Below are positions 808 to 46,715 of a DNA stretch of 64,000 nucleotides, piece by piece (position 1 is the stretch's first letter; every line of letters starts with the position of its first letter). This stretch comes from Lasiosphaeris hirsuta. Taxonomy: Eukaryota; Ascomycota; Sordariomycetes; Sordariales; Lasiosphaeriaceae. A program made the position numbers and the translations under genes. A model generated the notes under the pieces. That model saw only the letters and a program-made list of their open reading frames with translations, ran no database searches and was not told where the DNA came from. Location of the stretch: NCBI GenBank assembly GCA_030549175.1, contig JAUKUA010000008.1, positions 124,001 through 188,000 on the forward strand. Reading direction: 5' to 3'.

Positions 808-1126
808 GACCACGAAGTGTGTCGTACTGTCTCGAGCTTGTCAATGCCGTTTCTACTCGAGGGAACTACGACTTTCGTGATGATGTAAAGAACCACGACT
901 AGATTTCGACGTGATATACCCAGTCGAATCAGTTCTAGCGGCGAATAGGCAACTGTTCTTAGGTTTAGTGGTGGTGTCACCTGATGCCGGCCTGACTATA
1001 ACATGACCCATCAAGAAATTCAACACCGTGGGGTATGGCGTTGGAAAACAAAGGTTTTTTTTTTTTCAGCTGTTAGTTACATACATAACCCAACACAGTG
1101 ACTGGTACTTTTCAGGTAACGATTTA

Positions 1127-5718: not shown

Positions 5719-7006
5719 ATGGAGACACCTAACAGCCGTGTGACTTTCACGGCCCAGCTCCCGGGACGCGATGGGCCGCAGTGTGTTGAGCTCTGCTTTC
5801 ACTCAACATGGAAGCCGTCGCGTCGGCCACTCGTCATCCACTTTGACAAGGACGGTTCCGTCTCACCTGGAGGCGAGCCCCACGCCGGCGAAGTGGTCGT
5901 GGCCAAGTGTTTTACTTCCCCGCAAGCTCCGACCCCCTGATACCGCCGCAAGTACAACGACTGGTGCTGTGCTTTCCGTCTGCGGAATGTCTTGATCATG
6001 CTGCCGCTCGCTCTCGTCTGTGTCACCATGTGCACTGTCCCCCCCCCCCTTCCCACAGGATGGCGATGCCGTGCCAAACGAGATGGGCGTGTACATTTAT
6101 CCCCTCGACGAATCCATTGCCAACATTGCAGTCCCCTACGCCAATGTTCTTTTCGGGCTCTCTAAGCCTCTTGCTCCTACCCAGGGCCACCTCTCGCCTG
6201 GCCTCCCGCTGCACATGCTCATCGAGCTGGGAAGAAGCATTGGGCGTTTACGCTGGTACGTACACAGAGCTCCTGAGGACTTTAAAGAAATGTGCAGGGG
6301 GTACGTCAGCAGTGCCAGCGTGGCCCGAAGTGCGTTGGGACGTCTTGGTAGCACCGATCGTGACCGAAACGACTTTCTGGCCTGGACGACGTCCAACTTG
6401 AAGGGTGTCGCGGAAGGCCTGACGTCCATCGAACGGGACATTGAGGATAGGTTCCTAGAGACTATGGACAGTATCGTGGCCGTCAGGAGTGGTGGTGACG
6501 ACAGTCAATTTCGGAACGTCACCGCGATGGCCATTGCATCACTGGCGATTCACTACGCGGACCGTTGGGCCCAGGACCACAACCGGCACACCTTGGAGTT
6601 CAACGTACTTCAGGAAGCGGTGGGAAACATGTCGTTCAGCGAGGGGTACATTATGGATGGTATGAAGCATCTGGCGACAGCCCAGGGCTACAAGCATGGC
6701 GAGTAAAGGTCCCTTGCCACCACTACTACGTATTGTTGATAGCTGACATTGATTACTTCTTGTAGCAAGGTCCAGCAGGCGTTGAAGTCTCTGGAAACAA
6801 GTCTCCTGCCCGGCTTTGCTCAATGGACCGATCGTGTTCATGCGGTTGGGAGCGAGTTGCAACGTTGCAAGGCCGACTCGGAACGTCTGCATGCCGATAT
6901 GACCGAGTTTTTGCACGAAGGCCATGCTCCGTATTCACTGAGACGCATGTGGACGGTTTCGAAGGCTATTCTCAGGGAGCAGGCCGCCGTGTCTCCCTGT
7001 TTTTGA
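5719..7006 (+). CDS. Three-exon gene of unrecognised family, paralogue 1
   Basis: Translation most likely starts at ATG 5719 (context TCGAAAATGGAG), after a C/T-rich leader. Exon 1 runs to about 5892-5908; its donor is not resolved because no GT in the required phase fits the consensus. Exon 2 starts at 6059 after a polypyrimidine tract and CCCACAG, and ends at 6702. Intron 2 (6703-6765) has donor GTAAAG, branch site GCTGAC and acceptor TGTAG. Exon 3 (6766-7006) ends in TGA. The product is about 355 residues, mostly helical and charged, with no signal peptide. The block NMSFSEGYIMDGMKHLA before intron 2 and the helical stretch after it match the minus-strand gene at 8925-10147 with the same intron phase, so the two are paralogues. 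No catalytic motif is seen. Confidence 0.55.
6703..6765 (+). other. Spliceosomal intron 2 of paralogue 1
   Basis: This is a 63-base phase-2 intron with donor GTAAAG, a GCTGAC branch-like motif at about 6741-6746 and acceptor TTGTAG. Removing it joins two frames that align continuously with the minus-strand paralogue. Confidence 0.7.
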
Positions 7007-8924
7007 TGGGCTCTGGTTTATCCGCTTGGGTCTGGATGTAGCGATTGATCAAGTTGGCGCTCGAAGAAGAGAGTCAAAAGCCACGCAAGATGAGGCATGG
7101 AAAGTTCACGGACAAGCATGCGGTAACTGGTGGGGGCAGTGTGGTGATGGCGCAGATAGATCTTGGTCATCGCGAGCCGGTTTCCCGCTTGGTAGGGAAG
7201 TGTAGGTACCTCAGGCAGTTGGTCTTCTCTCGTGGGATTATTTACTCACCTTGCCTTTAGCAATGATCTCTTTGCTTCTGCGTACATCCTGGAGCGTTAT
7301 GTGGTGACCATGTGTAGGCGGTGGCAGGCCATCTCTTGAGGTCAGTGAATTAGCCTTGGAAAGTGACGTCTGCTCCTGCATTGTTTCGCTTATACCTGCC
7401 CTTTTGCCTTGTCCCTCTTCTGGGGGCTTGTTCTTTTTGCTGCACCAAGTTGGCATTAGCCCCCCACTTGATAAGACACTATATCTGAGGACGAGATTTT
7501 GTAAAGCTTACAAGATTCATTTCACACCTCTAATGCGGCATGTGTGCCCCACTGATGTCGAAATACATCACTCCCAGCGCTCTCGCCATCGCTTCAGCCA
7601 CTTTGCCAAGAGCGCGCAGTCGAGTGAGCGCTTTGCAACTTGACCGCCACTTCAAAACAACACACTCACAACACGCTCAATTACGCTCAATACCGTTGAT
7701 ACACGTAGTATTTTGACACTTTAGCCTTCACCGCCCGAACTTTCTTTGCTAACGGCTTTTGACAGCCCCTGGCAGCCCTGACAGTGGTGTGGCTGTAACG
7801 TGGTGTGTGGAAGAAGTGGAGGTGGAGGATGTATGTGGTGCAAATTGATGATCGGTACGGTGCATCTTCACGGTCTCAATCTTTTTGGATCTGCACTCCC
7901 GTCCAGTCCGCCTAACTGCCTACCAAGCTCATGGAAGTCAAGCTGGCGCGGACACCAGCACCTTCAAGGTAGTATAATTAAATCCATCACACGCAAAGCC
8001 TGCTGGTGGCGAGCGACGCCGAAGGACGGTTGGAATGTTCTCGAGCAGCCTGTCTATAAGAGTGAAGCGTAATGCATTCTCTTCTTTGGAAGTTTTGGGC
8101 CTTAAATGCTATAGCCTGCCATTAGATAGGTTGAATTCAATTCTCCCCATGCGGTTTCATACGGCTGCCAGCGACCCATGGGAACAGACCTGGTTGCAAA
8201 GAATAAGTTTCCAGCATCTACAGCCGGTTCTACCTACTCAGCGCCCTCTGATAATCTGGCAAGCCCTGGGTGGCCACAGTAGCTACACCACAGCTACTAC
8301 TAGTATCGCATATGATTTCTAAGGCGTGTGACTGGGGGCCAAGTTGAGTACGTCTTTGTCGCACTGGAAGCAGTGGGTTGCTAAGCTCTTGGGAGCGTAG
8401 CCCCTTGCGGGCAGCACTCTCCTCTCACACGCACTCTCTTTTGTTATAAGTAACCGCGCTCTCGCGCTCCTTGTGTTTTATAGCGACTTCGATATACAAT
8501 TCATTCTATCTATTACATGCCTTCTGCAGCCATCTTCTTCAGTGTAACAGTCTTGGAGCCACCGAGTAAAGATGGTTAATTATTACTTCAGCGGGTAAAA
8601 GAACCCAGACTACATCAGAACTGAATTTTTAAGTATGACTATCTTGGGTTCAAATATTTGACGAGGGGAAGCACGTGCGGCTGTGTTTATGTGGTGGTGT
8701 GCGGCTATAATTGTCGCTGTTTATCTCTTGTTGACCAGCTTAGCAACAAGGGGCGTGTCAAGTATAGAACACTTGAATTCTGAGGACACGACCCTGATAT
8801 ATAAGGTAGATGCAAAAGCCGCGCAATTTGCTCATAAAAGCGCGGCTTGCACCAAAAAAACGACGGCAAGCCGTAGAGCACTCATGATACATGATGTATG
8901 TCAATAGACTCACTTGTAAAGTTG
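7007..8924. other. Intergenic region between convergent paralogues
   Basis: No gene is supported in these 1.9 kb. It should contain the 3' untranslated regions of both flanking genes. Short frames on both strands lack motifs. Composition is balanced and there is no sign of RIP. Confidence 0.4.
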
Positions 8925-10147
8925 TCAAAATGCTGATGAGCTCAAGTTGACGGACGTGAATGCCCTCAACCCAAGATGCAGAGGGCCACGGCCACATCGC
9001 GCTGAACTTCCCTCCCGGCCTGCATCTACATACCTAGTCCTGGCCAGCAACTGTCCGAACACTGCCCGCTGTCCATTGACGGGGTCGGCGGGCTTGGCTC
9101 TGTCAGCTGCCTTGATGAAGTCGCGCTTTTGCTCCTGCAGCATTTCGGTGCTCTTTTCTACGTCCCGCACAAGGGAAGACAAGTCGTTCAACACAACAAC
9201 ACATGGCTCCTCTGCCAAAAAGAGGGTGCTCCATCGAGACGGCAGCATATGCCTATCCACAGCAAAGCTTGCTAGGCCGTGCTGAAGAGAAGAAAACTCC
9301 ATCTGAAGCTCCAACTCCTTGCTAGCCAGGCCGATGCGTGCCAACCATGCATAGAAGGCGGGGACATGAACTTGGCGAAGCTGCGCAAGCGCGGAATTGA
9401 TGATGGGAATGTCGCTGCGACAGGACATCAGCTTCGGAACGGGTCGGGGTGGGGTCATGTCGACTTACGGGTCGCTGGCGTACCTCTTGCTTCAGGCTAT
9501 TTGACCCATGCCATCCACTATCCAGCCCTGGTCGCCTTCCATGTTGAGAGCAGCCTCCTCGGTACGGGCGAGATTGTCAGCGGTGGCGGATAGCCATTGC
9601 ATGAAAGGATCCAAGCGACGCCCAACGCGAGAGGTAATAGCCATGGATGTCTGATTCTGGTCATGCCTTCGCGCATAGACGAATCCGTACAGGTTGTTGT
9701 GGTAGGCCTCCTCGCGGCCGGGAAGCGGCAAAGTCATGGCGTCAGGCCTTGCAGAGCTTGACCTGGCGACAGGAGGCTAGCATGAGAGAGGCAATCGAGA
9801 TGGGTTCTTCGAGGTGAAAGAGCGATGGCGTCGAGTGAGTAGTGATAGCTGTGAAAATTATGTCCCAAAGGGAATCCGCAGAGCGGTACCCGTGAGATTC
9901 ATGGGGGGAAAAGCGCGCCGAGGAGGGCGAAGCAAACAAGAAAAACAGCAGCAATGGCCATGCGGACAGAAACGGGATTGGACGGACCTTTCTCGACAGA
10001 GGTCATGGCACAGGAGATGCCGTCGTCACCCACAACAACCTGGTCTCTGTCAATAAAGTGGAGTGAAATGGCGTCTTTGTGGGGCGTACAGGACGGCTGA
10101 AAGCAAAACGTGACAGGCTGCTCGTCCGCCACGCTCTCGCTAATCAT
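8925..10147 (-). pseudogene. Four-exon gene of unrecognised family, paralogue 2, with an in-frame TGA
   Basis: The start is ATG 10147. Exon 1 is 9988-10147, exon 2 is 9763-9848, exon 3 is 9469-9710 and exon 4 is 9414 down to about 8925. The three introns are 139, 52 and 54 bases, with donors GTCCGT, GTCAAG and GTAAGT, and acceptors CACAG, GCGAG and CGCAG; all phases agree. The block NMEGDQGWIVDGMGQIA in exon 3 matches paralogue 1, and the exon 3/4 junction has the same phase. Codon 73 of exon 3 is TGA (9492-9494), with no length change against paralogue 1, which fits a single CGA-to-TGA nonsense change or a sequencing error. A further GTATGT donor at 9028-9033 suggests the 3' end may be spliced differently. 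No function is recognised; the protein would be cytosolic and helical. Confidence 0.55.
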
Positions 10148-10560: not shown

Positions 10561-12527
10561 TAAAGAAAGTTAAGTAAGATTTCTATGATAATAAATTAAT
10601 GCTTAATAAAGGAAGGGATATATATTAAGAAGATAACTACTATAGAAGAAAAAAAGTATTTTGTCCTTTTAATATTATTAAAAAGATAAAAAGAGCTTTT
10701 TTATATGATAATAGATTTTAAAAATAATATAAATATTATTAATTTAATAATTATAAACTTATATTAACTACTATAAAAGAAACTTAAATAACCTACATAA
10801 ATATAAATATTCGAAGGATAAAAAGTAGTCTATAATAAAAGACTTACTAAAAGGACGACTTAACTACTCTTAATCATAATAGACGATAATATTTAAAAGA
10901 AGCCTTTCTTAATCTTACTAATAGAAAGAAAGCTTATAATAATCTTAACCTTAACTAAGAGATTAACTAACTTAGTATTTAAAACAAAGAATTATTAAGA
11001 CTTCTAATTTAATAGAAAGAAACAAAAAGATCTTTATTAAAAAAAGAAAATATCTTTAAAGACATATAATTATAGATTAAGATTATAATAATAAGGGATA
11101 TTAAAGAATAGTCTTTATTATTTAAACTTAGTAAAACACTTAAAGATTTCTTATAAGTATTCAAGGAATATTTATAATATTTAGTTTTTAAAAAAAGATT
11201 AGATAAACTTTCTAAATATAGGCTATTTAACCATAAGATTAAACTTAAACAAGAAGTTAATCTTCAGTTCTTTCTTATGTATTATCTAAATCTTTGATAA
11301 AATAAGATACCATAAAAGTACTTAAAGAAAGAACTTATAATAAAGTTTATTAAACCATTAAAATTAAAAGTAAGATATCTTATATTATTTATATTAAAGA
11401 AAGAAACTATAAACTTATAACTAATAATTAACTATTAGACCTTAAATGAAGATAATATGAAGAACTATTATTTATCTTAACTAGTTTTTAGTTATAGATT
11501 TTCTTAAAGTATATAATTATATTTAAATTAAAGTAAGAAACGAGTATAAAACTATATTTAAAACATATTATTGTTATTTTTAATATAAAGTAATATCTTT
11601 TAGTCTTACTAATATATTTATAACCTTTTAAAGAATAATTAACTATATATATATATATATATATTTATATTTTTTAGAAGTTTTATATTTATATATTTAA
11701 ATAATATATTAACTTACTCAAGAATCTTCAAAGAATATAAGATGTATATATATTAAGTACTTTAAATAATTAAAAAAATAAAAATTTTAATATATCTTAA
11801 AAGAGTAAGTTTTATATATAAAAATTTACTTACTTAGGTTTTAAAATAACGTTAAGATAAATTAAGATAAAATTATTAAAGCTCAAGATTATTTAAGATT
11901 AATTTAAATGAAAAATATAAAAAGAAGTCTAAGTCTTTATTAAGTTTATAAACTTATAAAAGTAAGAGTAGTATTTATATAAACTAATAAATAAAAAATT
12001 ATATTTAATAAACTAATGTTATATTATAATATTAGAGATAAAGAACTTATAATAATTATCTAATACTTTAAAAAATAAGCTTTATATCTAAGTATTATCA
12101 AAGAACTTATAAAAGTTTTAATAGATTATATAAACCTTAAAATTTTTATTATTAAGAAACTTAATAAAAGATAAATAAGATAAGCAGAATTTTTGGTCTT
12201 ATTTAACTTTAAGATCTTTTATATTAAATAAAAGGAAAATAGTAAAGTTAATACTTTAAGTTATAGATTATATTATTAAAAAATAAAAAAAATAGAAAGA
12301 GAAATGATATTAAAAGAGAAGAAAGATAAAACTTTTATATATAAATTACAAACCTTTTTAAATTATTATATTAGTTTAAAGGTTAAATAATAAAATAATA
12401 ACTTTTAATATAAATGGAAAGATATAAAAGAAGATTTATTAAAGAAAGTAAAAAGTAAGTATATATTAAACTTTCTCTTATGATATTGTAATAAAGTTTA
12501 TATTTAATCTTTATAATAAAAATAGTA

Positions 12528-23875: not shown

Positions 23876-24749
23876 ATAATAAAAATAAAGTTAAGGAATT
23901 AACTTTAAAAGAAAAAGATTATATATATATTTTTTTAAAAACTTTATAAATAAAGTAACTTAATAAAAAGTTTAAGTTTAAATAAGTTAAACTATTTTAT
24001 ATTATTAAGAAGGTAGTAACTTTTTATTACAAGTTAAACTTACCTAAGATTATAAAAGTAAAAATGAAAGTTTTTTATGTTTTATTAGAAAAGAGTTTGA
24101 AAGTAAAGGTAGATAAAGAAGAATAGGACATTAAGAAATTATTAAATTTATAAATTGGAAATAAAAACTTTATTATTTAATTAAATAGTTAGATTTTAAA
24201 TTAAAAGATAATATATAGAAATTATACTTCAATTTAAAATGTCCCGAGTTAGTTAAAGATTTTTATTAATAGAATTCTAACAAATCTATCTTAAGAAAAC
24301 GATAAAAAAGAAGTATACCTAGTAAAACTTAAACCTACGACTTTTCTAAAGAGAGGCCCTAGTAATATTAAAAGGTAGCCTTGGTGCCAACTCCATGTCC
24401 CGAAGATGTCCCCCACAAACAACGCGTGTATAATAAATAAGACGCGGTCCATAAAAAAACATAAAACACGTTACCGTGTCTCACATTGACAATGCCGAAC
24501 GTATCAGTTGGACTGTCGTAATTGTTCGACATGAGTTCCTCTTCTGTCGTGGAGATACCAGGCTCCTAAGATTCTCTCAATTCATTTATCGTACCAAATT
24601 CATCTTTCAATGTACACGTTCAACTAAGAGATAGCTTATCTCTAAACCCGTCTAGTCTGTTCGTGACATAATCCGAGTAGCTAGAACGTGGTACACCCGA
24701 ACTAGTAATCGTATTAGAAGGCCCGGAAGGAATAGTATGGTACGTGATA

Positions 24750-25290
24750 TAGCTAGACAACGTTATAGTACCTACTAGAAAAAAACGTGACTTCCGCTTA
24801 GCTACCAAATCAGTTTTTCTCACTTATTCTAGATACCTACTAGACATAGACACATTTAACGCGGTAATAAACTCATTCGGATTTGAAGATTACTTTGTAG
24901 TATGTAAGAGTTACTAAGACGGTACCTTGTACTTTTATGTAATCGGGATCTTCCCTAAAACGAAAAATATAAAAAACGTCTATTACTTCGACATTAGCCG
25001 GTACTACCTGTAGATCGGTAAAACTTAGAGTCCTATTATAGCGTGGAAATATCTCTATAAAAAAGAAGACAGATCCGAATATATCGGCGGCGACTTTGTT
25101 ATCCCGAAAACGGCCTAGGTTACAATGTAAGATAATATATAGAAGGATACCGTTAAAGTTAAAATAAAAGACGACTTCTTTAAAACGTTAAAAGTAGACG
25201 TACTATAATAGTTTATATATTTATATATTAATATCAAAGCTTACGTAAACGATATATTTAAAGTTAAACACGAATAATATGTCTTACCAT
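24750..25290 (+). pseudogene. Endogenous Rep-like gene of geminivirus/genomovirus type (CRESS-DNA HUH endonuclease), RIP-damaged
   Basis: One frame (codons starting at positions divisible by three) reads like the N-terminal nicking domain of a rolling-circle replication initiator. Motif I, FLTY, is intact at 24816-24827. The motif II site, normally His-hydrophobic-His for metal binding, is TAC TTT TAT at 24930-24938, so both His positions are Tyr, one C-to-T step each. Motif III has the YxxK form (Y at 25050, K at 25059). A Phe-Asp-Ile segment between motifs II and III and a downstream block around 25130-25260 also resemble fungal genomovirus Reps. Several TAG/TAA codons interrupt the frame. 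The C-terminal SF3 helicase (Walker A) is not seen downstream. The start is not determinable. This copy cannot be functional. Exact virus family is uncertain. Confidence 0.65.
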
Positions 25291-25439
25291 AACTAAATAA
25301 CTTCTAAGAAATCTTAAAAGAAATAATAAAATAGATAAAGAAAAATCTCTATAACTTATTACGTAAGTACTTTCATATAATAAGATATGTTACTTAGGTA
25401 TTTTCTATCGAGCGTTTTAAACCTATTATTATCGGAATA

Positions 25440-27180
25440 TAGAGTTCCTTCCTTCCTTCCTAGGGAAGCCTTTTTTTAAATTTTGAAATAAAATGTTACT
25501 AAGTTATTTAGGGAATGTTTCTTTCTTATTTAGATACCTAAGATTTAGAAATAAATTTAGAAGTTAGTAATTAACTTTTTTTTAGTAAGATTAAAATTAT
25601 TAGTCTTATTTAACTTAATAAGACTATAAAAAATGATATAAATATAAAGTTTAAGTAATTATTATTATATATAAAAGTATTAAAACGGTATATTACTTAA
25701 TAAGATTAAAAAATATATTATTTTTAATAATATTTTATTAAGTAATAATAACATATATCGATATTATAAATAAATTTTAAGATATTAAACGTCTTTTATA
25801 TATATAAATAAGTATAAGTTAAAAATAGAAGTTACTAAATAAAAGTTATTATATATTTATGTTTATAATAAAGACTTAAGAGAATTATATAATAAAATCG
25901 ATATAGATTAGTTAGAAAAAAACTATATTTTCGTCAAAATTATTAACTTTTTTTTTATAAAATAAGTATTATTAAAGATACTTACTTTAATATAAGATAG
26001 ATTAAAAAGATTTTTATTATAAATCGAGAAAGATAAGAAATTTCTATAGCTATTTAGTTATCTTTTCTTTAATATATAATAGTCTTAATCTTATTAATTT
26101 TAATAACTAGTAAAATAATTTCTATAGTATCTTTTTTCTCTTATATTATAATAATAATAAATATCTCTAACTATGATATATCGGAACGAGATGACTTTAT
26201 AAGAATATTTTTATTCTTTACCTTCAGTTTTATCTTTAATATAACTAATAGTTATTTTACTTATATATAAGAAATATTAAATAAAATATAAAATATAATA
26301 TTTATATATTAAATAATATCTAAAGTATAATCTACCTATTAAATATTATTTATATTATTATTACTTATTATAACTTTTTTTTCTTAACTAAGTTAAATAA
26401 AAAAAGGTCGAGACTTTAATATTAACGTATTATACAGTTTATAAATAAAACTTTTATTTAACTAAATATATATTTTAACTTCTTTTCAAACTAACTAATA
26501 TATAAGAAAGTATATATCTATATAAGTTAATAACCCTTTGTTAAAAAATATATATATATAATTTAAAATTTATAATTTTTTACTAAGTAATAAGACTTAA
26601 GTAAATAAAAAAGGCTAGATATTATTCTTTAATATAATCTTATTAAAATTATATATTATAAATGAACTTTGTATTAATATAAAAAACGGCTAAAATGTTA
26701 AAATCTTAACATAATAAGTCTAAAAATAAATAATATCAAACTATAATTTTATCTTATATATCTTAATTATATTTATATTAATATCGTCATTTTATAATAC
26801 CTCCGAATTAGAAACTAAGAAAATATAGAGATTTATATTAATATATATATCCTTAAAAAAGTATAAATAATCTTTATTACATAAATACCGTTTTACGTTT
26901 TTTATAATATTAATAACTACTTTAACCTTTTAGACAAATTAATAACTAGGTATATTAAAATAATATTTCTATTAAAAACTACTTAAAAATTTCTAACTTA
27001 TTACTAACGGTATAAAGAAGATAAAGAAACGGAACGATAGTTAACATAGCTAAAAAAAATCTTATACTATTAAAAAGATAACTAAAGAAGATATTCGTTT
27101 TTATAATACTTTTATTATATAAGCTCTAATTAATTAACTAATTACTAATCATATAATAGGTTAGAAAGATAATAATAGTA
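25440..27180. other. Very AT-rich stretch inside the insert
   Basis: After a short CCTT repeat (25448-25465) the sequence becomes almost free of C and G for 1.7 kb and has stops in all frames. No transposase or viral motif was recognised on either strand. Heavy RIP of an older element is the likely cause. Confidence 0.4.
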
Positions 27181-27504
27181 ATTTTAAAGTAAGTTTAACT
27201 TATACGTCTAACTAAAAGGGAATATATGACACGAGTGTTTATGAAATCGAACCTAAGGATTATATATTAACGGAGAGAAAGATATATGTTAAATAATCGT
27301 GTTAATATCGCCGATAGGGATGTCGTCGATACGATAAAAACCGTACGGTACGATATATAGAACGATATAGGTGACGATAAGGACGACGAAAACCTCCTTG
27401 TTAGTAACGTGGATAAGGTATGAGAACTAATAAAAAAATCTTAAGGAAACAGTTTATATATGAGGAGTTAATATAAGAGAAAAAAAAGAATAAGGAGACA
27501 GAGG

Positions 27505-27575
27505 CTAAATAGCCGAGTAGTTAACCGTTTGACTATAACGTAAGAGGTTCGGTTAATATTTTACCGATGTAACAA
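27505..27575 (+). repeat. tRNA-like A box and B box, possible SINE remnant
   Basis: TAGCCGAGTAG (27510-27520) resembles a Pol III A box, and GGTTCGGTTAA (27546-27556), 26 bases further on, resembles a mutated B box. No convincing cloverleaf closes. Another B-box-like GGTTCAATCCC occurs at about 27690-27700. Old tRNA-derived repeat or chance. Confidence 0.2.
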
Positions 27576-27842
27576 ATCGTTCCTTATATATACTAATTAA
27601 AAAAATATCTCACGGAAAACGTGTATAGTAGCTACGTAACAATTACGTACGACTCCGTATCCTATAGATACTAGCTAACCACGAAGGTTCAATCCCCCGA
27701 GTCTGGACGATCGTAATCTCCTACCGTCGGATGTAGACATATAAGTACGCTATCTATCGGATCACATATCATAAATATCCGAGGACATCTCCTATGACAT
27801 ACTACTAAGACAGAGAACATCAAGACATCAACACCAAGGCTG

Positions 27843-29046
27843 TAATATTACTACTACCGGAAATCTATATATACCTAAGATATGTTATTATTATACTATA
27901 GGTACTAATTATTAATAAGACTCGAGTTATAACAACCTATAAAGACTTGATATATATAGACATAAGACTAGAATAAATAATAAATTTCTATTTTTCTTAA
28001 TATTATTTAGAAAGAAAAAATACTTACTTAAGATTAGGAGAAGTATTTTTAATATCAAAACTATCTTAGTTAAAAGTCAGAGATAGAGACATTATAAACT
28101 AGACCTATCGATCCTTATCTTAGAAAATGTCAATCTCGTAACTAAACAATATCTTAGTACGTTTTTTAACAGCCTAGGACTAAACCTCTAGTTATAAAAG
28201 CTTAGACAGGATATCTCTCTTTTCTTAATCGAGATAATACTTTTCTTTAAGAACGTAACGAAAGGTTTCGGGATCATTACCGTATATGTTACAGACTCTT
28301 ACGTTTATATGGAGGTAGGGCCTATAAGACTTATTACAACTCGCGATCTTATAAGATAATTTAATACCATACGGTTTATAACCAGAGTAACCAACGGATA
28401 TTACGATTTTAAAAATTGAGATAAAGTTAGTAAAGTCGTGGCGACGAGTAGTAGAAGGACGAGGTTTCTTAGTAGTACGATTGTTAAACATAATAGAGGA
28501 AGAAGGAAACGACTTATCCCGTAGTCCTTTATAGAAAAAAAAACCTAGGAGAAGGAGGTACGTGTCATATCCTATCTTATACTAAGGAGTTACGTAACAT
28601 GGAACAAGTGATTAGATAACAAAATATCCAATCATATGAAGATACTCCTACGCTCCCTTTACTCCCTAACTGAGTAACAGAGTAAGTAGGGTAAGATATT
28701 CCCACGCTCTATTTACTCCATCATAAAGTAACGGAACGAGTAGATCAAAAAAGATACAAGCTACCTGGTATGACTACCTACTAGATAGATAAATAGCTAA
28801 GGTGTTAGGTACCTCAGAGTGTGAGGATTCCTGTTTCTCACGTAAGCAATTCATATTCTGCTATGTCCTAAAGTACAACTCTTATAGTGACAGTAATCTA
28901 TTTGACAGAGTGTAAAACCTCCCGTCTAAGACATTTGCCTTTATCACAATCAATCTCCCCTTGTACCATAATCGACCTAGGCATTCTACTTTGCAATTTG
29001 TCATTTAACACTACGTACCCCGGTACCCAGTGCACAGGTTGTAATA
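27843..29046 (+). repeat. Gypsy B LTR shared by copies 1 and 2 (continuation after the insert)
   Basis: Together with 24360-24370 this makes an LTR of about 1.2 kb that ends TGTAATA (TGTGACA with RIP changes). Its first 170 and last 240 bases align well with the LTR at 40995-42284; the middle is more divergent. The minus strand holds an open frame at 28225-28491. The same region of the other LTR carries a Cys-containing antisense frame, so an antisense ORF may be a property of this LTR family. Confidence 0.6.
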
Positions 29047-30109
29047 CTTATATATATATAAACATTTAAAGGATAGAAAGTAGTCTACGATAAAGAACTT
29101 ACTAAAAGAACGACTTAACTACTTTTAATTATAATAAATGATAATATCTAAAATGAGTTCTTTTTAATCTTACTAGTAAGAAAGGAGCCTATGATAATTC
29201 TAAGCTGTCCTTAGTTATAAAAATATAACCTTAATCTCGACTAGAAGATTAAGTAACTTAACATTTAAAATAAAAGATTACTAAAGCTTTTAACTTAGTA
29301 GAAAGAAACAAAAGAACCTTTATTAAAAGAAGAAAATATTCTTAAAGACATATGATTATAGATTAAGATTATAACAATAAAAGACATTGAAGAATAATCC
29401 TTGCTATTTGAACTTAATAAAAAGCTTAGAAATCTCTTATAAGTATTGAAAAAATATTTATAATATTTAGTTTTTAAAAAAAGATTAAATAAACTTCCTA
29501 AGTATAAGCTATTTGACTATAAGATTAAGCTTAAGAAAGAAGTTAATCTTCGGTTTTTTCTTACATATTATCTAAATCTTCAACGAGATAAGATATTATA
29601 AAAGTACTTAAAGAAGAAACTTGTAACAAAGTTTATTAAACCGTTAAAATTAAAAATAAGATATCTTATATTATTTATACTAAAGAAAGAAATAACAGAT
29701 TTATAACTAGTAGTTAACTACTAAGTCTTAAACGAAGATAATACCAAGAGCTATTACTTATTATCTCTCATATCTAAAATATAAGGCTAAATTATTTATG
29801 TTAACTAGTTCTTAGCTATAGATTTCTCTAAAGTATATAATCACGTTTGAATTGAAGTAGGAGATAAGTATAAAACTATATTTAAAACATATTATAGCTA
29901 TTTCTAATATAAAGTGATACCTTTTAATCTTACTAATATATTTATAATCTTCCAAAGTATAATTAACTCTACATTCCGTTCTTTCTTAGATAGTTTTATA
30001 TTTATATATTTAGACAATGTATTAATTTACTTAAAAACCTTAGAAAAGCATAAGAACTATATATACTAGGTACTTTAGGTAATTAAAAAGATGAAACTTT
30101 TAATATATT

Positions 30110-31439
30110 TGTGATACAAGCTAGCCTATGAAGGTCTGGGGTATGACAACCACAAGGTGAGATATCAAATGAAGAGTTAGACTACAGAGCTTTAACCTTT
30201 TCCTAACTCTCGACTTAACCGTTTAGTAAACTACCCCGACAATTGCTATTGGTCTAGTTCAGAGCTTTTATACGACGAACTTAGGGACTTGATCTTCGTA
30301 AGGCTAATAAGCTCAAGGTCCGATTCAGAGGTTTAGAATAGAACGGTGAGAGAGTTGACTATCGTAATATAAAGTAGTAGAGAGCTAGAGAGAAGAAGGT
30401 TTAGGGAGATGGAATAATCTAACATAAGATAAGACACAATACTTCGTAGTTACAAGTTAGAAGAAACAGAAGGGTTCATAAGGTTGTATTATCTCTTAGC
30501 TTCACTAAAGTTCAGTTAATGATCTTTTTAGGTTTGTCTGAAGAAAACTAGGAAGCTTCTTTCCCTCGAGGATCTATCATAGCGTACCTGTCTTACTTAT
30601 GGAAGGCTATGTATAAGATATAAGGATATTAAAATATCTGAAGGATCTTCCTAGCTACCTGTCGGTCCCGAATCTCCTTTCCAGCCGCCCATCTCTCACG
30701 TCTTACAAATCAGTAGTTACAAGCTAAGTGAAGCTGGCTTATTATACGTTAGTCTATGGACGGTATTGGTACTTATTTTTATAGCTCTAGTAGCATGGTG
30801 TCCATTGCTATAGATGTTTCTTTACGTTCTTAGTACTTACGTTGGCTATAGTATTGTTAAGTTAATCCCTAGGTCGGTTATTACAGTAACGGTTCTTTTC
30901 GTAACTTATATGTAGGAGTTACGGCTATCTGTTACTACTAAAGCTAGACTTCGGAGAACGTTAGGTTCTAGGTCTTCTAAAGGAATGTCAGTGATAGTAA
31001 GAAGGTTTATAATTCGAAAGACTAGCTGTAAGATCTAGGCTAACTATATAGGCCCTAACTATGATATTAAGGTTAAATAGCTTGTTTATAACAAATCTAA
31101 AGTTTAATGATGTTACTTAGTATAGGTAAGGTCCGTTATATAGCTACTTTAGCTTATAAGTAGTTTCAGATATTTTATTATAACCCGTGGGTACTTTTAA
31201 GAAAATCTACTAACTTATGTATTAGCTAACTAGGCTATTAGCTATACGTAAGATTATATCCTGAGGTTAAGTTATGTTATAGCTATTTCCTATAATAGTT
31301 CCCTTCTCTATATAATCTATGGTAGATAATTATAGGTCAATAGGTATATATTTGTATGTATAGTTCGTACCGTTAATATATAGCTTAGTTAAGAAGGTCG
31401 GTGACCTTATTAACCTTAGGTAAGCTTACTAATGTAATA
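30110..31439 (-). repeat. 3' LTR of A2 (left in the window)
   Basis: It begins TGTGATACAAGC and ends ATGTAATA, the RIP-altered forms of TGTGACA...GTGTGACA. It is moderately RIP-mutated throughout and aligns with the LTR at 37480-38809. Confidence 0.8.
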
Positions 31440-34400
31440 CTATCCCCTCTCTTAGGAGAACTTACCTCGAGTCTCTAGGTTAATAACCCTAGGGTTTATA
31501 GGCTTATATAGGTATCTAATGTAGAAGTTTTAAAGTTTCTAGATATTAAAGAAATGTTTATATAGTTCTTAGGTCTAATTCTTCTTATTAAGATATTCTT
31601 CCTATTTAACATAGTATTTTATTACCTCTTTCTTAATATTAGAGTTTATAATTTTCTTTACTACGAATTTCTTAAGGTAAATATCTCTTACTTACTCTAA
31701 GACCTAAATAAGGTTAGGAATCGGCTAAGAGCCGGTTTAAGTTTTACGGCTATGGGAGATATTACCTTAGAGATCTTAAATAAGCTAAGTAACTTTCTAT
31801 CTAGCTTCTTAAAAGATCTCTTGGTCTTAATATTCTGTGCGTTAAGTATTATTAGTTACTTTTCTTTAAAGGAGGGTACTTCCGTTCGCTTCTGATTTAT
31901 ATATTTCTTTATCTATTTTTAAGATTTCTTAAGGGTTTTATAAAGGTTTTTATAGACTGTCGTCATCTAGTAAGTTATGATTTTTTTATATAGGTTACGT
32001 ACGGACTTATTTAGTAGGTTATTTATGGCCAGATAGTAACTAGAGTTAGTGTAGAAAGGAGAGTTACTAATAAAAGTTGATTTTGTATTATTTTATATAA
32101 ATTCGGCTATAGGTAATAAAGTATCTTAGTTATTTATCTCGTAGTTTATAAAGGCTTTGAAATAAGCTTTGATATGTTAGTTAAGACGTTCTATCTAGCT
32201 ATCTGTTTTAGGGTAGAATGTAGTTAATATCCTTAGTTTGACTTTTATATATTTGAGAAAGTTATGTTAAAGGCTTATGTTAAACTATAAGTTTTGATTA
32301 GAGATGATACTAGTAGATATATTATGATATTTCTAGTATTTATAAGTAAAGATAGGGATTAAGTCTTTTATCTTCTTAATATCGTTTTTTAAGGAGATAA
32401 AGTATATTATTTTGGTAAAGGTATCGATAATAACCTAGATAGAGTTATATCTATTAACGAGGGGAAGGTTTGTTATGAAGTCTATTAAGATAAGTATGTA
32501 AGGAAAGTATTTTAATTCGATTAGGTAAAGTAGTTTGAAAGAAAGATAACATCTTAGTTTATTACTTTGATACTTATAATAAGAATGTATAAACTTAGTA
32601 ATGTCTTTCTCAAGGTTTTACTAGTATATATACCGTCTAATAAGTTTAACGGTCTTATCTATATCTATATAGTCTATTACTTTGGTATTATGTTTGGAGT
32701 AGATAATCTAGATCTTAAGTTCCTTGTTATTAGGGACCTAGAGATGATTCTTTATAAATAGGATTTTATCTTTATTAGTTACTTCTTTTCTAAAGGTAAC
32801 TAGGGTCTTTTAATATACTTCGTCTATAGGAATGGTAGCTTTGATCTATTTAAGAAATTTCTTATTTTATTTTAGTGTTAAAATGTTATAGAGACGAGCT
32901 TTCGAAAGTATAAACGTTAAGGCTTCTAAATAAGAAAAATGTTTTTTATTTAAAATTGAGGTTATCAGCTAGTTTTTATCTCCCTTTTTAGAAAGATACA
33001 CTTCGTGCCGTGAGAGAGTATTAGCCTTGGTATTCTATATGCTAGGATAGAAATTGATAACGAAGTCGAAGGTAGTAAGTTACTAAACTTATCGGGCTTA
33101 GTAGTGGTTAAGAACTTTTACAGTCTAGAAGTATTTTAGATTATGGTAGTCTAAGAAAACTTCGATATGATATTTAACGTCCTTAAGGTAATATCTTTAA
33201 TGTTAGAAGTAGTTAACTATTATTAAGAGTTTCTTATTATAGGTCTCGTAGTTAATTTCTATAGAGATTAGTTTCTTTAAGTAAAATGTTAAAAAATATA
33301 TCTTACCGTTATCTTGTTTTTATAATATTATTTCTCTTAATATGTAATCTAAAGTGTTAAGTTTAATAATAAGTAGTTTATTAAGGTCGAAATAAACTAA
33401 AATAAGAGCTTTAGTAAAGGTTTTCTTTAATACCTTTAATATAATATTTATTTGATTATTCTACGTCTAAGATTTCTAAGTTAAGTTAGTAGAATTAGTA
33501 AGCGGTTTAACGATATGTAAGTAACCTTTAATATAGTACGTATAGAAGTTTGTAAATCTATTAAATTATTAAATTTCTTTTATTAATCTTAGCTGTTTTT
33601 ATGAAAGGATATATTTTATTTTATTTTTTAATATTACGACATTTTTAGTATTAATAATATAACCTAGGTATTTTAGTTTCTTAATATCTTATATATATTT
33701 AGAAGGGTTAATAATGAGGTTATACTTCTAAAGTCGTTTAAGGACTTTAATGATAATCTTATCGTACTCTTTCTTAAAGCTTATGTAAATAAGAAGATTG
33801 TTAATATAGGATAAGAGGCCTTAATCGATAAGATCTCAAAAGATATAATTTATTATATCTTAAAAAGTAGTAAAAGTATTAGTAAGGCTAAAGGATATTA
33901 CTTTAAACTTAAAAAGACTGTAATAAGTTTAAAAAGTTATTTTCTATTTGTAACTTTTCTTTATCCGAATTAAGTTAAAGCCCGTTTTTAGATTTATCTT
34001 AGTGAAGATAATTAATTTAGTAAAGATATCTTAAAGTTTGGTAATAAGACGTAATGGGTAACAGTTTTTGATAGTTTGTTTGTTAATCTTTCAGTAGTCG
34101 ACTATAGGTTAGAGATTTTCCGAATCCCTAATAGCTACTTTTTCCAACGATACTTCTTTGTCTATGAAAAAGATAGGTAAAGAGTAAGGTAACTTTAATT
34201 TCTATATCTTTTTTTCCTTAAGTATTTAGTCTAGTTATTTATAAAAGATCTTTTTTTCTAAGGGTAATATAAGATAGAAAGGTTTCTATAGAGACTTCTT
34301 ATCTTCGATAATGTTAATTACGTAGTCTTATAGCTAGTGATTTAATAGTTATTAGACCGTTTTAAGAGATGTTAGAGGTGTGAACATCTTAAATCTTTTA

Positions 34401-37400
34401 GAGATTTTTATAATATAAGATATGATAATACTAACGATAGAGCTTTTACTTCCTAAGACTACGAAAGAAGTATAGTTTTAATAACAATAGTTTAAGATAA
34501 AGGTTATTTTTGTTATGTTAACATTTCATAAGTAGTCTAGTTAGTACTATTATAGTTACTAATATAGTAAAATGATATTATATTTTATATCGAGGATAGA
34601 GATTTCGAACGTGATATAAAAGAAATATTTTACTTAGTATCATAGAACGATTTTCTTAGTATACTTCTTACTTAATTTAAGGTTGATAGTTCCATTAAGG
34701 TTTCTAAGGGTTTTAGAATTATTTTATGTATGTAAGAGATGTTCTATTTTTTAACTAAGTCCTTACTTATGACTAAGCTAAAGGCTCTAGGGTTTAAGAG
34801 TGTTTAGACAAGTATTTTCTTAGTTTTATAGTAGATAATAATTATAGGAATAATCTTACGACTTCCGTAGTATAGTTTATAGTTATACTTAGCCTTCTTA
34901 TAAGAAGGCTTCTTAATGTTATTAAAGTGATAGGTACGCTTTTAGGTAGAGGTTGTGGTATATCGAGGCGTAGGTTCCGATACCATGAGATTTGGGATAT
35001 CAGTTAAAAATCCGATATATTCTTACTATTATATAACTTAAAAATACGAGGGAAAAGCTTAAGGCAGTCTTTTTTTATTATTATAAAGACCTTAGCCTTC
35101 TTAGATATTCGGTGAGAGATATCTTCTTATTTCTCGTTATTATCCTTATCTTTTCTTCCGTGTTTAGTTTTAACTCCGGAGATCTTTCTAGGTAGCTTAG
35201 GAATATCTTTACTATCTTCGGTTTTCTTATTATAATACTTAAGAGTATTATAACCTTGTTATCTATAACGGTAATATCTCTTACTTATCTTATACTTATT
35301 AATCTCGGCTTAGTTTATCCCAGTAGTAACTTCCTTATAAGTTTGTTAATACTTTGTTTAGGTAGGTACCGAGGGCTTATCCTCCTTGTCTTATTATTTT
35401 TACTTTAACTCCCATTTAGCCTTGTTAGTAAGTATTAGACTGGGATAGAAGATAGAGATATTAGTTTCCTCCTTATAATTGTCCTTCTTTAAACATTTCT
35501 TATTATTTAAAGTAGACTTTCCTTTTTCTTACTTAGCTTTACGATTAATTTCGTAGTTTTTTATTTTGTCCTTATAAATTAAACCGGCTATAACGATAGC
35601 TTCGAGGAAGTTAGCGTCGTTAGGAGGGAGATATCTTATATGTAAATATATTAGATTTATTATGGCTTTGAGGACGGTATTAGTGACTAGCGATTGTAAG
35701 GCCTAGCCGCTAAGATCGACGGTATGATTAAGTTTTTAAAACTTTGTTATATACTTATTTATATCTCTGTCATAGATTAGGGTCTTTATAGCTTTATAGT
35801 CCTTAGTTTTACGTACTAGGTCGTAGAAACGTTTAACTATAGCGGTAGTATAGTTATTCCATTGATTTACTAGGCTAAGCTTTTCGATCTAAGTCTCTCT
35901 TTTTTGATACTATTTAAAGGTAGTATCTTTAGTAAGGGTACTGACAAAGTTAATTTTAACCTTGTTATTGAAGAAACTTTATTTATAGACATTAAAATAT
36001 TTCTTAATAAAGTATTATTATATTTTAAACTTACCTTTATCCTTTTCGTTATATTTTTTAAGTTTCGTTATAGTTATGGTAGTACCTTAACTATAGAATT
36101 CTTAGATCGTATTAGTATTATTATAGATTAGGTCTTAATTAGTATAGATAAGGTCGAGAAAGATTACTATAGGGTCATGTAGGAATAAGGAACTTTGAAA
36201 GTTTAGACTTAAAGGTCTTAGAGGTTCTAGAGGCCCTAATAGGCCTTCTAGTAGTTTAGAAGGACTAGGAGATAAACTTATACGATATAAATTATTATCT
36301 AAGTTATTATTATTACTATTATTAAGAGATAGTAATATTTCTATCTTAATATAATAGAGAGGTAAATTTCTTCTAGTATTTCTACTTCTTATCTTAGCGT
36401 TAGAATTTTATATATTATCGACCTATCTTCGGGCTCGTGTCGAAATTTCTCGGGTAGCCTTTCTTTAGAGGTTACGGTCTAAGAGAGAGTTTTCGTTTTA
36501 GTCGAAGTATTATATAGAAGTTAATTTTTTAAACGGTTGTAATATCTATTATAAGAGTTTAATAGAAGGTATTTTCTATAAACGGGTTAGAGTTCTTTAA
36601 ATAATCTGTTCCTTATCGTAAGACCTTATTTATATTAACCTCGATATAAGAGCTTTTTTAACGAGGTTATTAAAGTAGGCCTTAAGTTAATCGAATAGTT
36701 TTTAGCCCTTTAGAGTCTATAATATTTTTAATTATTAAAATATTATAAGAGAATTAAACTAGCTTTAAGCTATAATAAACTAATAGCTAAATTCTATATT
36801 ATAATAATCTTAATAAGTTTACTTTTCTTTTTAGATATAAAGAAGTTCTTTAACTTAAATAAGCTCGGTATTTTATTTTCTAACTTACGATTCTTATTCT
36901 AACGTTTGTTGTACTCATTACTACTTTTACCTTATAATTTCCTTATAAAATACTTCTGTACGTGTAATAACAAGGTTAAGGGATTTTTTATATTAAGTCG
37001 TTTAGGTAGTAAATTAGGCTAATTTTTAGTTAACCTCAATACCGAAGGTAGTATAAAAAGCTTTTAGTTTTTACTAAGTACTTTTAAAAACGTATTAGTT
37101 TGTCTTAATATATTATATTATTAACTAGTAGTTAGTAACTAAGGTAATAAATGTTAAAGTAAGTAAATTAAGCCTTTCCTTATCTTTATATATATTATTT
37201 ATAAAGAAATAAAGTTCCTTATAAGCTTTAATAACTTAGTTATAAAGATTAATAAACTATTAAAGTAGTTTAGTAATGGTTTCTAAGCTCGATAAGAATA
37301 TAAGAAATCTTTTAATAGTCTAGATTTTTATCTCAGAAAGTTTCTAAATCATAAGGTCGGTACCAAGAGAAGGTTCGGTTTCCTAGCCCTAGATTACGAC

Positions 37401-37479
37401 TAAATATAAAGTAAGATTACCGGCTATCGTAAATAATATAACAGGCTAAAAATGTTCTTAGGTAAGAAGAAAGATTATC

Positions 37480-38809
37480 TATAATATAGGCTAACTTATA
37501 AAGGTCTAAGATATAATAACTATAAGGTAAGATATTAAATAAAGAGTTAGACTATAAAGCTTTAACCTTTTCTTAACTTTTAACTTAACCATTTAATAAA
37601 CCACCCCGATAATTACTATTAGTCTAGTTTAAAGTTTTCATACGATAAACTTAGAAACTTAATCTTCGTAAGGCTAATAAGCTTAAGGTCCGATTTAAAG
37701 GTTTAGAATAGAACGGTAAGGAAGTTAACTATCATAATATAAAGTAGTAAAGAACTAGGGAGAAAGAGGTTTAGAGAGATGAAATGATCTAACATAAGAT
37801 AAGACATAATACTTCGTAGTTATAAGTTAAGAGAAATAGAAAGATTTACAAAGTTATATTACCCCTTAGCTTTACTAAAGTTTAGCTGATAATCTTTCTA
37901 GGTTTGTCCAAAGAGAACTAGGAAGTTTCTTTCTCTCGAGGATCTATCATAACGTACCTGTCCTACTTATGGAAGGCTATGTGTAAGATATAAGGATACT
38001 AAAATACCTAAAGGATCTTCCTAGCTGCCCGTCAGTCCTAAATCTCCTTTCTAGCCGTCTGTCTCTCACACCCTACAAATCAGCGGTTACAAGCTAAGTG
38101 AAGCCGGCCCATCATACGTTAGTCCACGGGTAGTATCAGTACTTATCTATATAACTTTAACGACATAGTATCCATTACTATAGGTGTTCCTTCACGTCCT
38201 TAGTACTTACGTTAACTATAGTACTGTTAGGTTGATCCCTAGGTCGGCTGTTATAGTAACGGTTCCCTTCGTAACTTATACGTAGGGGTCACGGCTACTT
38301 ATTACTACTGAAGCTAGACTCCGGAGAACGTCGGGTTCCAGGTCTTCTAAAGGAATACCAGCGATAGCGGGGAGGTCCATGATTTGAATGACCAGCTATA
38401 AGATCTAGGCTGATTGTACAGGCCCCGACTACGATACTAAGGTTAAATAGCTTGTCCATAACAAATCTGAAGTCTGATAACATTACCTAGTATAGGCGAG
38501 GTCCGTTGTACGGCTACTCTGGCTTGTGAGTGGTTCCGGGTATTCTGTTACGACCCGTGGGTACTTTTAGGAGAATCCGCTGACCTGTGTGTCGGCTAAA
38601 TAAGCCATTAGCCACACATAAGATCATGTCCCGAGGTTGAGCCACGTTATGGCCATCCCCTGTGATAGTTCCCTTTTCCACGTGATCCATGGTAAATGTT
38701 CATGGGTCAATGGGTATATGTTTGTGTATGTGGTTCGTGCCACTGATGTATAGCTCGGTCAAGGAGGTCGGTAACCCTGTTGACCTTAGGTGAGCCTACC
38801 AGTGTGACA
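37480..38809 (-). repeat. 5' LTR of A2 (right in the window)
   Basis: It begins TATAATATAGG and ends CCAGTGTGACA. The inner half is strongly RIP-mutated; the outer 700 bases (about 38,050-38,809) retain many CpA/TpG sites. Confidence 0.8.
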
Positions 38810-40994
38810 ATATTTTAAAAAGAATAAGTTCTATGTATAAGAACTTACTTACTTAAGTTTTAAGATAATATTAAGGTAGGTTAAGATAAAACTATTAAAA
38901 CTTAAGATTATTTAAAATTAGCCCGAATTAAAGACATAGAAAGAAGTTTAAGCTTTTATTAAAGTTTTATTAAATACTTTAAATATATTATTAAACTATT
39001 TTATAAACTTATAAAAATATGAATAATATTTATATAGACCGACATATAAAAGAAGATATTTAAGAAGTTAAAGAAAGTATTTAATATAACTTTAATTCTT
39101 ATACTATCTAATTTTATTAAATCTTATATTATTAAAACGTACTTATTCAACTATGTATCTGAAGAGGTTTTTAATTAATATTAAGATAATAAAAAGTTAT
39201 ATCTAGTAATATTTTTATTAAAGGGAATTAATAGACTAGTATCATATTATAATATTGGAGATAAGAAACTTATAGTAATTATCTAATACGTTAAGAAATA
39301 AGCCTTATATTTAAATAGTACGAAAAAGCTTATAAAGATTTTAACAAACTATATAAATCTTAGAACCTTTACTATTAATAAAACTAAATAAAAGATAGAT
39401 AAGATAGGTAAAATTCCTAGCTCTATTTAACTTTAAGATCTTTTACGTTAAAGGGAAGGAAAATGATAAAGCCAATACTCCAAGTTATAAGCCCGACCAT
39501 TAAAAGATAAAAGAACCAAAAATAAAAGTGATCTTAAAGGAAGAAAAAGATAAAACTCTTATATATAAGCTATAAACCTTTTTAAACTACTACGTTAGTT
39601 TTAAGGTCAAATGATAAAATGATAACTATTAATATAAAGAGAAGACGTAAAAAAGACTTACTAAAGAAAGTAAAAGACGGATATATGTTAAACTCTCTTT
39701 TATAATAAGAAAAATATATTGGAAAGATATATAAAGGATAAATAAGAGGCTATATAAGAGTTTCGAAAACATTAAATTAAGTATAATAAAACTATAATAT
39801 CTTACTTATAAAAAAGAAGGTAAAAAAGGTTGTTTAGAAGTACTATGTATATAATAAGACTAAATTAAAGAGATATATGTAATATAAACTTTTTAAACTA
39901 CTCTCAGCTTTAAAAAGAAAATAAAATTTAATCTTAATAAATTTTATCATTAAGATCTTAAACTCTAAGAACCTAATGGCAAATATAATATATAATAATA
40001 TTTAAGTAATAATAAATAAACTTATGAAATAAGCTTATTTTCTTCTAGTTAAAAAGATTATAATTACTAAATAACTTATCTATTAATATATCTTTAGCTT
40101 AATAATATTATCTTAAATAGAGATAAGTTAATAATGATAAGATTTTAGTAAAGACTTATAATAAAGATAAGAGTAAAAAGTAAACTTTTTATTATATACT
40201 ACTTATAAATAAATAGTTAAATAGAATAGCTAAACTAGATACTTAAAATATACTTAAGGACTTATATTAATTTTAAACAAAATAACTAACTTAAACTGTT
40301 ACTTATAGTATGGATAGTTTATAATATAACTATAGTTAAATTAACTAAAGTATTATCTTATCTTATACTTTATAAATAAATATTAAAACTTTGATATAGA
40401 CTATTAACGAATGTACTATAAGTAATAGTTTATATAGATAGAGTTTAAAAACTTATGGAGTATCTAAAATAAGAACTAAAATATATATGAGAAAGAGTAA
40501 AGTTTTATTATGATAAAAATAAAGTTAAGAGATTAACTTTAAAAGAGAAAGACTATGTTTATCTTTTTTTAAGAAATTTACAAACGAAACGACTTAGTAA
40601 GAAACTCGATTTTAAGTAAGTCAAACCGTTTTATATCGTCAAAAAGTTAATAACCTTTAATTACAAATTAATCCTACCTAAGACTATAAGAATAAGAATG
40701 AAAGTCTTTTATGTTTTACTAGAAAAGAGTTTAAAAGTAGAGGTAAATAAAGAAGAATAGAATATTAAGGAATTTTTGGATTTATAGTTTAAGAATAAGA
40801 AACTTTATTATCTAATTAAATAGTTAGATTATAAGTTAAAAGATAATACGTAAGAACTATACTCTAATTTAGAATATTCTAAGTTAATTAAAGATTTTTA
40901 CTAAAAGAATCTTAACAAACTTACCTTAAGAAAATAATAAAAAAGAAGTATATCTAATAGAGTTTAAACCTTTGACCTTCCCAAAGAGAGGCTC

Positions 40995-42284
40995 TAGTAA
41001 TATTACTACTACCAGAAGCCTTTATATACCTAAGATACGCTACTACTACACTATAAGTACTAATTATTAAAAAGGCTTAAGTTCCAATAACCTATAAAGA
41101 CTTAACATACCTAGACATAAGGCTAAAATAAGTAACAAATTTCTATTTTTTCTAATACTATCTAGAAAGAAAGAGTATTTATCCGGGATCAGAAGGAAGA
41201 TTAACAAGTAAACTACTATCGATCAGGAGCTTAGGGTCAAACTAAGAGATAAGAGAAAATTCGGACGTTATCTCAGCTACCTTTTCTTAAGCCTCGAACT
41301 TAACAATGTCTTAGTATTCCTAAGTAAAGGCCTTATAAGCCATAACCTCTAAAGTACCACGTTACTTATAAAGGTAGAGAAGCCTCGAAATCTCACAGAC
41401 CAAGGTGGTAAGAACGTCCTCCTCTTTATCATCCAGTTTATTTTTCTAGTCAATCAAGAAGTTAAAGGTTAACTGACTAATACCCGTAACGTCATAAGAA
41501 AGAACGTTCAACGAAGAACAGTTCTTATAACGACGAGAACCCTCGAGGACTCTACACTTAAGTGCCTTATTAGTATAACAAGTATAAGAAGGCATTAGGG
41601 AACTAAAAGAAATACGTTAGTAGCAAAACGAAGGCGATAAGAGGTACTAGGTTTAGGGTCAGAAATAGAAGTTTTTCTTTTCCTAGGTATAATGAGAGGA
41701 AGGAGACGGAAGAGCTTAACGGGAACATAGACTAATAGGAAGAGTAGGATCTTCCCTTACTTAAGAACCTAACCAGTAGATCTTTAAAACAGAAGATCTT
41801 AGAAGGAAGGACTGCGTGTAACGTTCTATAGATTACGTAACTTATCATATAGTCTCGAAATGGTCTGTATAGTCTCTATGTAGATCGAGTGATCTGTACA
41901 CTCCCTACACAAAGCGAAAAGAATAACTGTTACTTAGACGTGTTCTTTACAATCTGTTTACAGAACGTACAGAACAAAGGAGCCACACTTAGGAAATGGT
42001 ACGTAGGTACGTACTATTTAGTTAGTATAAGTAGGTAACGTGTTAAACACCTTGGTACGTGAGGATTCCTATTCCTTACGTAAGCAATTCATATTCTACT
42101 ATATCCTAAAGTACGACTACTATAGTAATAGTAATCTGTTTGACAAAGTGTGAAACCCCCTGTCTAAGACACTTACCTTCATCACGATCAATCTCCACTT
42201 ATACTATAATCGACCTAGGCGTTCTACCTTACGATCTGTCATTCAACACTACGTACTCCGGTACTCAGTACACAGGTTGTGACA
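40995..42284 (+). repeat. 3' LTR of gypsy B copy 2, with antisense ORF remnant
   Basis: It begins TAGTAATATTACTACTACC directly after the polypurine tract and ends GGTTGTGACA. It includes an unbroken TAATATTAC at 40998-41006. On the minus strand, about 41,610-41,200, one frame is largely open and includes a Cys-spaced block (CRVLEGSRRYKNC) followed by a charged helical stretch. Similar antisense frames with Cys clusters occur, as far as I recall, in LTRs of other fungal gypsy elements; their role is unknown. Confidence 0.6.
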
Positions 42285-46515: not shown

Positions 46516-46599
46516 GCCCCTGGAAAATGCAAACTTTTTTCACATTATTTGGGCGTCCGACTTCAGGCCTATTTGGCCCTGAAAAATAGAAAAAGTGGA

Positions 46600-46700
46600 C
46601 CCAAGCCAAATCTTGCCAAATCCTGGAAATCTGGGCTTGGCTTGGCTTGAGGCTTGGCTTGGCTTGATTGGCTTGGCTTGGGTCAGCTTGGCTTGTGTCA
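46600..46700. repeat. hAT right subterminal GCTTGG repeats
   Basis: About ten GCTTG(G) units in 100 bases, in the orientation opposite to those at the left end. Confidence 0.65.
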
Positions 46701-46715
46701 GGCGCTGCTTAGGCA

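Follow-up and report, generated by a model that had tools for sequence, protein, structure and literature searches.

The stretch of Lasiosphaeris hirsuta DNA analyzed here (64,000 nucleotides, contig JAUKUA010000008.1, positions 124,001 to 188,000; hereafter the window) contains a decayed gene for a replication protein (Rep) of the type encoded by circular Rep-encoding single-stranded DNA (CRESS) viruses. The gene lies in a repeat unit of 3.48 kb (3489 bp including a nonanucleotide at both ends), and the genome holds about a dozen decayed copies of this CRESS-type unit. Feature coordinates are collected in Table 1.

Rep frame and its relatives

In the window copy, FLTY, YFY and YLYK lie in a single frame at the positions given by the original prediction, which had read them as Rep motifs I, II and III. 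An unbroken metagenomic protein of 296 amino acids, P0016, matched this frame (C13:148789-149352 in contig numbering; E 1.0e-36, 38% identity) across 12 stop codons (six TAG and six TAA), and P0001 matched window positions 24786-25070 (E 1.9e-7); these two matches rule out a chance occurrence of the motifs. The Gemini_AL1 family profile search proposed with the prediction returned four sister places, all over the cut-off (best 1.4e-8), and did not list the window copy itself. For the least mutated copy, C7, a stop-free Rep piece matched Gemini_AL1 at 40.5 bits (3.2e-10) and six distinct solved Rep sequences at approximately 2e-6. The HUH catalytic domain is present with motifs I, II and III in order, as read from the C7 piece, the P0016 match and the sister copies. 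By sequence comparison the frame was confirmed as a geminivirus/genomovirus-type Rep, and an endogenous CRESS Rep, as predicted, is supported by the sister matches to Gemini_AL1, the solved Reps, P0001 and P0016. Both motif II histidines are lost in the window copy, again as predicted, and in c2tB; among the eight copies compared, both are kept in two (c7, c2r) and one in four (c2a, c2b, c2tA, c13).

The oligomerization domain (Gemini_AL1_M) was matched in the C7 copy only, at C7:4905669-4905923. Downstream, helicase halves of related Reps matched positions 1227-1514 of the C7 copy in another frame (7 of 43 queries below 1e-3, best 6.9e-7; best reversed-sequence control in the C7 copy, 0.034), so that a helicase domain C-terminal to the HUH domain is present, seen in this copy only. 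Spliced Rep genes occur in mastreviruses and genomoviruses, and a helicase in another frame would fit a spliced Rep.

A two-sequence profile matched 193 proteins, the best 120 of which were listed. Most of these are unnamed, the named Reps among them are mastreviral, and none of the best 120 of 193 is named as a genomovirus. A tree was built from 92 sequences, C7 and 91 of the best 120 of 193 matches, with 29 listed rows (23 named mastrevirus and 6 metagenomic) left out beforehand. With support 1.0, the C7 Rep grouped with P0016, P0018 and P0021 in a clade distant from the six named mastrevirus rows that the tree included; the longest contigs carrying these three proteins measure 2136, 2367 and 2596 bases, respectively. 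Genomoviridae have fungal hosts, a gemini-type Rep and a circular genome of approximately 2.2 kb. The window family is like them in host and Rep type and differs in its 3.48-kb unit and in its nearest clade, which consists of unnamed metagenomic Reps. The Rep is assigned here to the gemini/genomovirus type and is not placed within Genomoviridae.

Unit ends, split origin and probable capsid gene

The span first proposed, 24750 to 25290, proved too narrow for the element. Unit ends were set by comparing 17-40 kb around copies; sister copies have these ends in common, and an empty site delimits them. When the Rep region was used as a DNA query, 11 further places were matched, 3 of them through short similarity to a flanking repeat. 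A genome-wide pattern search gave at least 12 right ends and at least 8 family left ends, with none for the reversed-pattern control. Both ends are present in eight copies: the window copy, C2:244763, C2:250307, C2:211521 (minus strand), C13:456107, C7:4904904 and a tandem pair, C2:86479 and C2:98361; the last four are interrupted by other DNA. Four copies (C12, C14, C13:448319 and C2:297773) have the right end only. A ninth, weak left-end-like match with two mismatches lies at C13:134886 (window 10886-10906). At C13:457970 and C7:4906751, large and mutually dissimilar insertions occupy about the same element position, 26205.

The sequence abutting the element ends is GTAATATTA or a near variant, the complement of the nonanucleotide TAATATTAC, which Reps of the gemini/genomovirus type nick, with the nick predicted between TAATATT and AC. 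AATATTA adjoins 11 of the 12 right ends, and the 8 left ends read GTAATATTA (six), ATAATATTA (one) and GTAATATTG (one). The GTAATATTG end is at C13:456107-456115, where other copies have A; because of this reading, the ancestral nonanucleotide may have differed at one base. No long terminal inverted repeats are present; the ends carry only 10-bp inverted hairpin arms, with a 6-base offset on one side. Once the two ends are brought together, these arms form a 10-bp stem with a 15-nt loop containing TAATATTAC (-9.2 to -9.3 kcal/mol; 0 of 200 shuffles as good), the origin hairpin typical of CRESS viruses; in single insertions the arms are split. GGACA-type repeats lie beside the hairpin. Rep and the nonanucleotide are on opposite strands, which is the geminivirus layout.

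A minus-strand frame with an Arg-rich N-terminus is the probable capsid gene, judged from sequence. A 72-residue piece of it is intact in 4 of 10 aligned copies (c7, c13, c2a, c2b) and broken in the window copy. Repeat-induced point mutation (RIP) does not produce transversions, and transversions fell on the three codon positions of this frame as 24/15/39 (P 0.0017) and of the first Rep frame as 3/2/9 (P 0.017; 1/1/3 without c2tB), the P values taking no account of several frames having been examined. Two other candidates were set aside. A 207-amino-acid open minus-strand frame at L030:8856-9476 is probably not a gene: it had no Pfam, PHROG or homolog match and its transversions fell as 14/9/7, though few copies have stops there. 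Sequences like tRNA A and B boxes in the right end of the element, at L030:9217-9280 (window ~27500-27560), had no ARAGORN or Rfam support.

Table 1. Positions of the element and related features in the window
Feature	Position	Strand	Basis or remark
Whole insertion, 3489 bp including nonanucleotide at both ends	24362..27850	+	Shared sister ends, empty site
Left-end nonanucleotide, TAATATTAC on minus strand	24362..24370	-	8 family left ends genome-wide
Left hairpin arm of split origin, AGCCTTGGTG	24377..24386	+	Pairs with right arm on joining ends
TGTCC-type repeats, left end	24396, 24407
Rep frame, first part: N-terminal extension, catalytic domain, oligomerization domain	24492..25439	+	Many stops
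Stretch matching P0016 directly	24789..25352	+	E 1.0e-36
Rep motif I (FLTY)	24816..24827	+
Rep motif II (Tyr-Phe-Tyr in window copy)	24930..24938	+	Both His kept in two sister copies
Rep motif III (YLYK)	25050..25061	+
Rep helicase part, other frame (intron or frameshift before)	25588..25875	+	Matched in C7 only, mapped to window
Probable virion-sense capsid gene	26411..27421	-	Arg-rich N-terminus 27305-27421; codon-position pattern of transversions
Iteron-like repeats, AGACA in window, GGACA x3 in C7	27808..27827	+
Right hairpin arm of split origin, CACCAAGGCT	27832..27841	+
Right-end nonanucleotide	27842..27850	-
Empty paralogous target site of window insertion	40510..41181	+	Matches both flanks; one GTAATATTAC at 40997-41006

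Target sites and decay of the copies

For the window insertion, two empty paralogs were read: the one in the same window has one exact GTAATATTAC, the other GTAGTGTTAT. For C7, the genome has 33 other places at which the two flanks adjoin, and the 4 read have exact GTAATATTAC (two) or GTGATATTAC (two). Each of the 6 empty paralogs read for these two insertions thus has one nonanucleotide-like sequence, exact in 3. Empty sites for the remaining copies were sought within sequence around known copies. Three copies, c2b, c2r and the fragment C13:448319, lie at one long terminal repeat (LTR) position in two orientations. An LTR retrotransposon with many genome copies and LTRs of approximately 1.33 kb occupies window positions 30106-38812; its family hosts these three Rep elements at the one LTR site.

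The two units of the tandem pair share one nonanucleotide, yet over the right half 38 per 1000 sites differ between them by transversion; because of this difference the pair is not one concatemer, and its units arrived separately, one at the other's nonanucleotide. Among copies, transversion distances range between 1 and 43 per 1000 sites, and the transversions are shared in a mostly nested way, which indicates arrival in several waves.

In the left half, C7 and the window copy align over 1847 sites and differ at 342, by 338 transitions and 4 transversions; the right half aligns over 1646 sites with 309 differences, of which 305 are transitions. C-to-T changes from C7 to window were most often before A (81 of 167 in the left half, 78 of 147 in the right) and G-to-A changes most often after T (56 of 119 and 62 of 136). 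Changes in the opposite direction numbered 52 and 22, so C7 itself was mutated too. Transversions are more frequent in older copies (c2tB, 32 of 410 differences from C7; c14, 35 of 306). The window copy has TpA/ApT of 1.29 and (CpA+TpG)/(ApC+GpT) of 0.38, values that indicate RIP. The excess of transitions, with these indices, supports inactivation of the copies by RIP, the cause of decay that the original prediction had named.

Elsewhere in the window, positions 1-10000 and 46000-52000 are islands of ~45-56% GC with open frames; these include an MMR_HSR1 GTPase (49005-51155) and a Lipase_3 match at 47358-48008 that was just under the cut-off.

Integration and competing explanations

The data show the homology of the Rep frame, the ends of the unit, empty target sites, insertions distinct from one another and a decay made up mainly of transitions. 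We consider it probable (roughly 0.7) that a lineage of CRESS mycoviruses repeatedly entered the chromosomes through nicking and joining of the Rep type, at sites resembling the nonanucleotide, and that the copies then decayed by RIP. Rep would nick between TAATATT and AC in both the circular virus and a chromosomal nonanucleotide-like site, and the nicked viral and chromosomal ends would be joined crosswise; a circle opened at the nonanucleotide would have its hairpin arms at opposite ends with one nonanucleotide on each side. Copies would accumulate in several waves and then be inactivated by RIP. That all ends lie at an origin-like short sequence suggests that the virus's replication enzyme also inserted the copies. 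We infer Rep catalysis, the capsid identity of the minus-strand frame, and a virus rather than a transposon as the agent. More tentatively, integration could be programmed and temperate-like, Rep using chromosomal nonanucleotides as attachment sites and splitting the origin hairpin on entry. RIP turning sequences such as GTGACGTTAC towards GTAATATTAC might supply new target sites.

Several observations weigh against this account. None of 18 empty LTR paralogs reads exact GTAATATTAC (17 transition-only variants and 1 indel), which leaves an exact pre-insertion site unsupported for the three LTR copies; either these sites had already been converted by RIP, or the enzyme can act on such variants. 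Two paralogs of the c2a target (C7:4914130-4914858 and C13:476788-477516) have two GTAAYATTA sites 711 bp apart, and c2a carries the element where they have the 711 bp. The helicase was matched in one copy only, 5 of the 7 matching queries being closely related mastrevirus Reps, and PF00910, with 52 weak matches genome-wide and none in any copy, did not list it. Once the oldest copy is removed, the capsid codon signal weakens to P 0.051, and the capsid frame had no database match (NCBIfam and PDB among those searched with capsid pieces). Scans of viral contigs found no relative, and junctions identical to those made by Rep would also arise from a crossover within 9 bp common to both DNAs.

A less likely rival is a virus-derived transposon that integrated once and thereafter multiplied from its copies in the chromosomes, Rep serving as transposase, with no infectious phase; it shares the insertion mechanism with viral integration, and the odds of the two overlap. 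Two flanking nonanucleotides would permit rolling-circle release, the copy groups by shared transversions are mostly nested, like transposable-element subfamilies, all copies found are in one genome, and the viral-contig scans found no relative. A pure transposon, however, would not keep a capsid frame, for which the third-position excess is a modest signal. Considerably less probable is a crossover between circular viral DNA and chromosomal GTAATATTAC by short homology, not catalyzed by Rep: it yields the same product, but the junctions coincide with the Rep nick motif, and nine or ten bases are short for homologous recombination.

Passive integration of viral DNA at breaks, followed by segmental duplication or gene conversion, is very improbable here, even though passive integration is described as usual for most viruses that lack an integrase (PMC7758297). 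Under this model copies should have truncated or scattered ends, and the junctions argue against it: copies have the same ends, different flanks, opposite orientations at one LTR site and empty paralogs. Segmental duplication was rejected on the shared ends with differing flanks. Least credible is a cut-and-paste DNA transposon carrying a Rep gene, as in Tuber, since the flanking direct repeat that resembles a 9-bp target duplication, beside ends with an offset 10-bp inverted repeat, is almost the same from one insertion to the next and coincides with the motif that Rep nicks, and a DDE transposon was rejected on this end structure and the lack of a transposase match among the 10 C7 pieces scanned.

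Rep-mediated integration is reportedly treated by Krupovic and Forterre (2015). To our knowledge, Replitrons lack a helicase. The following comparisons draw on parts of the cited sources. Rep integration of CRESS viruses is already held likely (PMC7493932) or proposed (PMC5014472), and endogenous geminivirus-like Reps in fungi and whole CRESS genomes in protists are known. In Tuber melanosporum, the geminivirus-like transposon (Liu et al. 2011, PMC3198968) is, like the window family, multi-copy and carries a geminivirus-like Rep in a fungal genome; its terminal inverted repeats are 37 bp long, it contains transposase open reading frames and it lacks an obvious target duplication, whereas the window family is bounded by the nonanucleotide, has 10-bp arms only and gave no transposase match among the pieces scanned. 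Yam and Nicotiana contain endogenous geminiviral sequences that share integrated Rep, origin and tandem arrays, with Rep-driven spread proposed (Filloux et al. 2015, PMC5014472); their hosts are plants, and the parts of that paper covered describe no set of precise insertions with empty sites. Entamoeba and Giardia likewise carry whole CRESS genomes, Rep and Cap, in chromosomes, with Rep integration held likely (Kinsella et al. 2020, PMC7493932), and no chromosomal nonanucleotide target is named in the parts covered. Replitrons (Craig 2023, via review PMC10741241) resemble the family, by description, in their HUH endonuclease, short direct terminal repeats (5-11 bp) and size range (0.9-4 kb), whereas the window family differs in its geminivirus-type Rep, which includes a helicase part, and in its hairpin origin and probable capsid. 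Adeno-associated virus, a parvovirus, offers a parallel in which a viral Rep directs integration to chromosomal sites resembling its own binding and nick region (review PMC5714925). In the literature searched, largely outside subscription journals, no family was described at chromosomal nonanucleotides or with empty-site proof.

With many junctions, empty sites and a tandem in one genome, the idea of integration by Rep becomes testable as to where insertion occurs, how exactly, and in which strains. If true, it would link CRESS viruses to rolling-circle transposons and would show RIP acting on a family of DNA viruses.
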